64,000 nucleotides of DNA from Halopelagius longus (GTDB lineage: Archaea > Halobacteriota > Halobacteria > Halobacteriales > Haloferacaceae). The notes beneath the pieces were generated by a model. That model was not told where the DNA came from, made no database searches, and saw nothing but the letters and a program-made list of their open reading frames with translations. A program made the translations under genes and the position numbers. Location of the stretch: the NCBI RefSeq assembly GCF_900100875.1, contig NZ_FNKQ01000003.1, positions 496,001-560,000 on the forward strand, read 5' to 3'. This document shows positions 17,570-37,810 of this stretch, in pieces; position 1 is the first letter of the stretch; every line of letters begins with the position of its first letter.

Positions 17570-17643
17570 GTCCGGGTTAGGGTAGTGGACTATCCTTCAG
17601 CCTTGTGGAGGCTGAGACGCGGGTTCAATTCTCGCACCCGGAC
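17570..17643 (+). tRNA. tRNA-His (GTG)
   Basis: The acceptor stem TCCGGGT (17571-17577) pairs with ACCCGGA (17636-17642). An extra G at 17570 faces C at 17643, the G-1:C73 feature specific to tRNA-His. The anticodon stem CAGCC/GGCTG encloses TTGTGGA with anticodon GTG. The T loop is TTCAATT. No intron and no encoded CCA. Partial copies of its 3' third occur 130 and 240 bases downstream. Confidence 0.93.
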
Positions 17644-17730
17644 CTTCTCTCCGAGCGTTACTCCCTACGAGCGTTCGCTCCGTCAGGAGCGACGCGAGTA
17701 GACGACGTACGCGACGGAGAAGTCGTACGA

Positions 17731-17791
17731 GAGAATTGAATCAGGGAGCGAACGCAGTGAGCGACCGGGGTTCAATTCTCGCGCCCGGACC
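17731..17791. repeat. Palindromic copy of the tRNA-His 3' part, copy 1
   Basis: GGGTTCAATTCTCGCGCCCG and the following GACC repeat the T arm and 3' acceptor of the tRNA-His with one change. The T-loop part is mirrored: GAGAATTGAA (17731-17740) is the exact reverse complement of TTCAATTCTC (17771-17780). The 30 bases between contain GGAGCGAACGCAGTGAGCGA. The element could be a remnant of integration at the tRNA or a structured RNA tail. Confidence 0.65.
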
Positions 17792-17836
17792 GTTTCCGAC
17801 GAACGAGGTGAGGAGTGAAAAGTCCGGACGGAGAGA

Positions 17837-17897
17837 TTGAACCACGCGAGACGAGCGAAACGAGTCTCGCACCGGGTTCAGTTCCCGCACCCGAACG
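17837..17897. repeat. Palindromic copy of the tRNA-His 3' part, copy 2
   Basis: TTGAACC (17837-17843) mirrors GGTTCA (17875-17880), with an inner pair CGAGAC/GTCTCG around GAGCGAAACGA. The right arm GGGTTCAGTTCCCGCACCCG is a more diverged copy of the tRNA-His T arm and acceptor. It has the same plan as copy 1 at lower identity, so it is probably older. Confidence 0.55.
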
Positions 17898-17937
17898 ACC
17901 GCGGCGAAAAGAACTGCACCGCCGACGGCGACCCGCC

Positions 17938-25199: not shown

Positions 25200-25272
25200 G
25201 GGACCGTGGGTTAGCCTGGTATACTTCGGGCCTTGGGTGCCCGTGACCCCGGTTCAAATCCGGGCGGTCCCA
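25200..25272 (+). tRNA. tRNA-Pro (TGG)
   Basis: The acceptor stem GGGACCG (25200-25206) pairs with CGGTCCC (25265-25271), with discriminator A at 25272. The anticodon stem CGGGC/GCCCG encloses CTTGGGT, giving anticodon TGG. The T arm is CCCCGGTTCAAATCCGGG. No intron and no encoded CCA. A 17-base exact copy of the T arm and acceptor start lies 107 bases downstream inside a palindrome. Confidence 0.94.
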
Positions 25273-25321
25273 CTCTTGTGCGAGGAACGGACGTGAGGAG
25301 CCAGAAACGAACAGCGGCCGG

Positions 25322-25374
25322 TTTGAACCAGCGAGCAAATCTCCGATTTGCGAGTGAGGTTCAAATCCGGGCGG
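25322..25374. repeat. Palindromic copy of the tRNA-Pro T arm
   Basis: GGTTCAAATCCGGGCGG (25358-25374) is identical to 25251-25267 of the tRNA-Pro. Its T-loop part is mirrored by TTTGAACC (25322-25329). An inner perfect pair GCAAATC-TCC-GATTTGC (25335-25351) lies between them. The plan is the same as for the elements after tRNA-His, with a different sequence taken from a different tRNA. Confidence 0.65.
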
Positions 25375-25556
25375 CCACCATCTCCCAAAGCAAACAGAGG
25401 ACACGAGAGACCAAATCGCAGTCTCTCGGGCTCCCTCCGGTATTCCGAATCGCGCCAGGTATTATCTATATACTGAAATAATGTTCGGCCCGCACGTACA
25501 TAGAGAACCCAAAACGGCCGTAATCCATTCATAGGGTGACGCTAGAGAAACAATCC

Positions 25557-37595: not shown

Positions 37596-37605
37596 GGGCG
37601 GGAGC

Positions 37606-37662
37606 GATCTTTTGGTCCAGATTTTGCGGGCGCGAACGGAGTGAGTGCCCGGAAAAGGTGGG
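37606..37662. repeat. Structured intergenic element, copy B
   Basis: It has the same order of boxes as copy A at 3407: TCCAG-ATTTTG, then an imperfect hairpin GGGCGC/GTGCCC around GAACGGAGTGA, then AAAAGGTGGG. It begins ten bases after the aminopeptidase stop codon, as copy A follows etfA. Outer boxes are conserved and the hairpin sequence differs, suggesting selection on structure or on the flanks. Confidence 0.6.
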
Positions 37663-37810
37663 AGCGAACGCCGCCTCTAAAGATCATATAACGAACAGGA
37701 CCGTCCGAAGAAACCGGGAATCAGACGGTATACCCCGTAGAGAACGCCCTTCTACGGATAATTGAACGGTCCAAACAATTTATGCCTATGTATCAGAAAA
37801 GCGGACCCAC

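Follow-up and report, generated by a model that had tools for sequence, protein, structure and literature searches.

Non-coding palindromic cassettes, stacked in tandem and in a single orientation at the 3' ends of tRNA genes, make up a family that extends across the haloarchaea, as judged from comparative sequence analysis, with most tRNA genes preceding one to three of them. tRNA genes are favored landing sites of archaeal mobile elements and are usually treated as plain genes with short trailers, and we found no description of such tRNA-tail cassettes in the literature searched (open-licence papers). The analysis started from a stretch of 64,000 nucleotides of the Halopelagius longus genome (3.87 Mb, 8 contigs), namely positions 496001-560000 of contig 3, hereafter the window, in which a sequence-only reading had pointed to two palindromes following tRNA-His.

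tRNA-His (GTG), identified with ARAGORN and Rfam at 17571..17644 on the forward strand, ends in a segment, here denoted A, that runs from the GGTTC of the T-loop to the 3' end (17622-17644), and is followed by two units on the same strand. Each unit consists, in this order, of a spacer hairpin, an inverted copy (A'), a cap, and a direct copy (A'') of the tRNA end. Unit 1 (17645..17791, 147 bp, cap type X) contains a forward-strand spacer (17645..17730) that starts with the T-rich TTCTCT and folds into a hairpin (DNA fold z -2.3), an inverted T-loop/T-stem copy on the reverse strand (17731..17742, GAGAATTGAATC), the forward-strand type X cap (17743..17768, AGGGAGCGAACGCAGTGAGCGACCGG), the core of which is common to 15 tRNA kinds, and a forward-strand A'' spanning the T-loop to the acceptor end (17769..17791). 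Unit 2 (17792..17897, 106 bp, cap type Z) contains a reverse-strand A' (17833..17843, GAGATTGAACC), preceded by GTCCGG (17822-17827), which complements the acceptor end CCGGAC, as well as an inner hairpin that folds (GCGAGAC ... GTCTCGC, 17846..17870, forward strand) and a more diverged forward-strand A'' (17875..17897).

The two copies of the tRNA-His 3' end on which the sequence-only reading was built are real (17763-17796, 85% over 34 nt, and 17869-17902, 71%), the nearer one matching at 23/24 positions over GGGTTC...GGACC, close to the 24/25 claimed; from GTTC to the 3' end, identity to tRNA-His is 21/22 for the unit 1 copy and 18/22 for the unit 2 copy. An inverted copy of the T-loop had also been described 30 nt ahead of each direct copy, and this arrangement is present in unit 1, where the arm GAGAATTGAA (17731-17740) pairs with TTCAATTCTC (17771-17780) with 30 nt between them, whereas unit 2 has a less perfect arm at the corresponding place. 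CAGGGAGCGAACGCAGTGAGCGACCGG and ACGCGAGACGAGCGAAACGAGTCTCGCACCG, which form the middles of the two units, are of the GAGCGA type. Hairpins with GNA triloops and tandem G.A pairs are very stable, and the cap centers of all units (e.g., window 17743-17768) read C-GNA-G flanked by CGAA/TGAG, which would suit such triloops and G.A pairs. A degenerate second tRNA gene was rejected as an explanation because the copies start at GGTTC and the upstream half is absent, and a primer-binding site of a retroelement, which would complement the 3' end of the tRNA, was rejected because inspection of the sequence showed no CCA copy in the arms.

The second tRNA of the window, tRNA-Pro (TGG; 25200..25273, forward strand), has a unit of its own, with the palindrome at 25318..25379 on the same strand (A' CCGGTTTGAACC, 25318-25329; A'' GGTTCAAATCCGGGCGGCCACC, 25358-25379). 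Searching the H. longus genome with the tRNA-His region recovered 13 other places, mostly through the element part, and inspection revealed the same architecture at Val-TAC (three units), Arg-CCT, Gly, Asp, Ser, Lys, Met, Tyr, Phe, Trp, and other tRNA genes. About 30 of the 45 tRNA genes of this genome carry arrays, counting three that were displaced by mobile elements. In H. longus and its sister species G122 taken together, copies of the tRNA 3' segment (at least 72% match, within 900 nt) occur at 41 of 77 tRNA loci, compared with 0/77 in shuffled controls, and the type X core pattern has 20 matches in the H. longus genome and none for the reversed control. The units do not appear to be a general feature of stable RNAs: the 3' flank of the SRP RNA gene, the one such gene examined, contains no such unit.

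Beyond this genome, the palindrome GATTYGAA-N14..40-TTCRAATC was detected in 277 of the 292 genomes of the class, a count that includes matches inside the tRNA-Ser-CGA gene itself, most of which are removed by a stricter pattern. The latter, which ends in GGTTCRAATC, is present in 56 of the 60 listed class genomes, at least one of them solely via the tRNA-Ser-CGA gene, and in 2/236 other genomes of the phylum. Of 30 loci fetched across the class, most contain a sense-oriented tRNA 3' end ~30-65 nt ahead of the palindrome, and in Salinibaculum sp. KK48 (NZ_CP129992.1) three of the four palindromes are located behind a tRNA. At least one copy was found at 152 of 239 tRNA loci; these counts include related species, which are not independent, and unit detection criteria differ between counts. 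A neighboring-gene search for related loci yielded four relatives, with tRNA-His beside the gene in none of them. In viral contigs, the type X pattern has no match, and a viral origin was rejected on this ground.

Chance palindromes, or low-complexity GAGCGA sequence, could be envisaged given that the window is rich in ordinary inverted repeats (65 compared with 24-34 in shuffled sequence). However, the reversed pattern matches in 0/292 genomes and the palindromes are confined to the class and to tRNA 3' ends, so that the reversed-pattern controls and shuffles reduce this explanation to a negligible probability. The exact unit 1 palindrome occurs once in the window and in 0/100 shuffles. An equal density of palindromes away from tRNA genes, which the sequence-only reading had named as the mark of random occurrence, is not what the genome displays: each of the eight strict palindromes follows a tRNA or, where a mobile element has inserted into the tRNA, the att site of that element.

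The direct copy of a tRNA 3' end downstream of the gene is a typical feature of the att sites that tyrosine integrases use in tRNA genes (reviewed in PMC8371274), and the units might thus be insertion scars, that is, att duplications in which the mirrored arm arose by chance or as part of attP. The three arrays displaced from their tRNA by integrated mobile elements, at Leu-TAG, Arg-CCG, and Glu-TTC, make this explanation highly improbable. The tRNA-Leu-TAG element (~10.4 kb, contig 2 ~68863-79345) encodes a tyrosine-integrase-like ORF beside the tRNA and generated an att copy of ~65 bp, with three palindromic units located beyond attR. tRNA-Arg-CCG is separated from its unit array by a stretch of ~28 kb (contig 1 ~40600-68600), probably an integrated element, the far end of which carries a short att-like copy (CCCGTCGGGTCCG), and tRNA-Glu-TTC is separated from its unit by ~11.5 kb (contig 1 ~999611-1011340). 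The att copies of all three elements lack the mirrored arm. Because the arrays lie beyond attR, the units appear to be older than the elements, and the combination of att copies without a mirrored arm and units beyond them indicates that the units are not integrase scars. The earlier argument that att duplication explains the direct copy and leaves the mirrored arm unexplained is thus borne out by three genuine att copies from the same genome. Furthermore, the units bound no integrase gene, and the element that encodes the integrase-like ORF is located at another site, with an att copy of a different kind. Altogether, the units differ from att sites in the mirrored arm, the conserved cap, the lack of an integrase, and the position beyond genuine att copies.

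Among 30 genomes of the family, the number of units behind tRNA-His ranges from 0 to 3, and cap types X, Y, Z, and W succeed one another in differing orders: a single genus has X-Y-Y, Y-X, and X, and another has W-Y-W; in G122 and in the genome designated G009, two tandem Z copies, identical or nearly so, are present. Register-shifted homology, in which what follows the tRNA, or one of the copies, at one locus equals what follows a different copy at the other, was detected for 60 same-tRNA locus pairs, including recently duplicated tRNA loci within one genome, and begins at the tRNA 3' end. The sequence that follows the unit 1 A'' in the window directly follows tRNA-His in G122 (88% over 100 nt). 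These comparisons show that the units, which are non-coding and mostly 100-160 bp in length (median 117 bp), have been gained or lost as wholes, in register with the tRNA 3' end. The final A'' of an array is the most decayed (0.894 vs 0.966), as expected if new units enter beside the tRNA. Nested insertions and a tRNA-derived small element, both offered as possibilities by the sequence-only reading, come close to this picture of modular units that are stacked in tandem and gained or lost as wholes; a transcript-processing structure, the third of its suggestions, is conceivable.

Spacers and caps recur at different tRNAs, as in the case of Asp and Ser-GGA (83-98% over 43-116 nt) or Arg-CCT and Val-TAC (84% over 83 nt); for some caps, the sharing even extends across families. 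The nearest cap at a different tRNA belongs to the same genome in 9.3 of 24 cases, compared with 3.9 expected. Caps are better conserved than spacers, in a comparison that is biased by sorting according to cap type. The arms, in contrast, follow the local tRNA. The variable T-loop base is tracked three ways, in the tRNA, A'', and A', in 138 of 154 units (A/A/T in 76 and G/G/C in 62), and also within a single isoacceptor (His 20/20, Met 9/10). T-stem complementarity reaches 339/616 positions, ~9 SD above the 249+-9.5 obtained by permutation (maximum 279), with a mean z of 4.9 when one unit per isoacceptor is used; the matching weakens toward the acceptor. Where A'' departs from the tRNA, A' follows A'' slightly in excess (19 vs 14, in the less alignment-biased count). 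In the Glu-TTC unit, the T-loop position is occupied by G in A'' and by C in A', in contrast to the A of the tRNA itself, implying that both arms of the unit changed together. In the frame GAAYCACG ... CATCGGG, inner stems that are fully different are nevertheless paired (CGAGAC/GTCTCG, CAGACC/GGTCTG, AAATCC/GGATTT, and CAAACG/CGTTTG). Taken together, these patterns show that caps and spacers are common to different tRNAs, whereas both arms follow the tRNA at hand.

As to how the units form and stay matched, we tentatively prefer homology-anchored copying at the conserved T-loop, by template switching, slippage, or recombination, an account to which we assign slightly less than an even chance. 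The anchor would be the nearly invariant T-loop sequence GGTTCRA(A/T)TC, and the copying would take place during replication or repair. A strand leaving a tRNA would take up the trailer and cap from a neighboring or ectopic unit and then re-anneal at the T-loop of its own tRNA, so that the new direct copy would automatically match that tRNA, while the old flank would move behind the new copy. Template switching across the palindrome, selection, or the two combined might then bring the inverted arm into agreement with the local sequence, and later loss or duplication of units could result from slippage between the 20-25 bp direct copies. Such anchored copying would account for the host-matched direct copy, the borrowed spacers and caps, the gain and loss in register, and the matched inverted arm. 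Tandem inversion duplications (parent - inverted - parent), which are known from bacteria, likewise have the A - A' - A'' order, arms derived from the parent, and hairpins at both junctions, but the units are far smaller and recurrent, and their junction caps are conserved and shared between tRNAs rather than local. The making and repair of hairpin arms by template switching is known (PMC8794818), and in quasi-palindrome or template-switch mutations inverted arms are also copied or corrected from a nearby template, whereas the units recur at most tRNAs of a whole class and share their caps (PMC8794818; PMC7202029). Pure mutation would require no selection, yet the class-wide persistence and the compensated inner stems point to a possible contribution of selection. 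These features speak against copying as the sole account, as do the better conservation of caps and the small margin by which A' follows A''.

Alternatively, the units could be mini-cassettes mobilized in trans by a site-specific recombinase recognizing the T-loop and the folded A'-cap-A'', such that the tRNA tail would be akin to an attachment site and the array to a gene-free integron cassette array. The cassette-like changes of order, the insertion beside the tRNA, the precise unit borders, and the similar caps in different families are all consistent with this possibility, and integron arrays with folded attC indeed consist of tandem cassettes that end in an imperfect palindrome with a variable cap, vary in order and number, and receive new units beside an anchor. 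However, crossover within the tRNA would import the acceptor end of the donor, so that both arms would have to be rewritten if transfer from one tRNA to another were to leave the tRNAs intact; the units have no linked recombinase gene; and type X is without a match in viral contigs. Furthermore, unlike integron cassettes, the units are gene-free (median 117 bp), the anchor is a tRNA, and the arms follow each tRNA. We consider a recombinase-driven origin unlikely.

A selected role at the RNA level, with the units serving as back-up terminators or as hairpins for 3'-end processing that gene conversion with the tRNA would renew, appears rather unlikely as the full explanation of the units, although several observations speak for it. 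The final A'' is followed by a T-run in 43% of cases, against a background of 5.7%, and T-runs follow the tRNA as well as the final copy; paired inner stems change together; and neither species has a unit at tRNA-Asn, which is followed by tRNA-Met after 110 nt. In Haloferax volcanii, T-stretch terminators with hairpins upstream of 503 sites have been reported (PMC7237163), and, like the units, these haloarchaeal hairpins adjoin T-runs downstream of genes, but we found no report of terminators with arms copied from the upstream gene. Conversely, a terminator needs no arm copied from the tRNA, T-runs behind the final copy fit both a terminator and the displaced original flank of the tRNA, and units are absent from many tRNAs and from orthologs in the sister species. 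Over the whole arm, G.T and A.C mismatches are equally frequent (28 vs 29), which gives no support to a strongly selected sense-RNA stem, while in the T-loop core G.T mildly exceeds A.C (67/730 vs 49/964), in favor of a role at the RNA level. If the units are of use to the cell, back-up termination would be the likeliest function.

The two tRNA-His palindromes, as DNA, do not fold unusually well compared with shuffled sequences (z -1.4 and -0.9). In a long RNA fold of the whole tRNA-His locus, the tRNA T-arm pairs with A', and competition of A' for the T-arm is therefore predicted to be possible. It is also conceivable, but in our estimation improbable, that haloarchaea run an active system, driven by an enzyme or by replication, which would write and reshuffle host-matched palindromic cassettes at tRNA 3' ends using the universal T-loop as the docking sequence, possibly for termination or DNA handling at tRNA genes.

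Short, non-coding, palindromic repeats of haloarchaea have been described in Haloquadratum as small mobile repeats, PATEs, and MITEs, from which the units are set apart by that description, the former having fixed ends and dispersed sites and the latter being bound to tRNAs with host-matched arms (PMC3119063). More generally, dispersed palindromic repeats (REP, MITE, PATE) have fixed ends irrespective of the site, a property that the units lack because their arms follow the local tRNA. Class-wide, fast-changing repeats matched to each tRNA would offer a clear example from nature of palindromes formed on a template and of repeats evolving in concert in archaea, and the many loci could serve as natural replicates in which template switching is weighed against recombinase action or selection. 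In addition, the units can mislead the annotation of tRNA fragments and att sites.

Several further observations concern related structures. A further type of unit is found behind Ala-GGC, Gly-TCC, Gly-CCC, and Arg-TCT; its inverted arm is a copy of the acceptor/T-stem end, with a GGGACTCC-like sequence in place of the T-loop. A tRNA-Met-like unit is located on the opposite strand 2.7 kb from tRNA-Met (contig 3 ~298750-298830), a placement that simple insertion does not explain. tRNA-Asp and tRNA-Arg-GCG occur as tandem duplicates that include their downstream sequence, indicating that a tRNA can be copied together with its unit. Finally, GAGCGA-type caps occur also away from tRNAs, as at window 37605-37670, where a hairpin with a GCGAACGGAGTGAGT loop, flanked by TTTT/AAAA, lies at the border of a protein gene and is possibly a gene-end hairpin.
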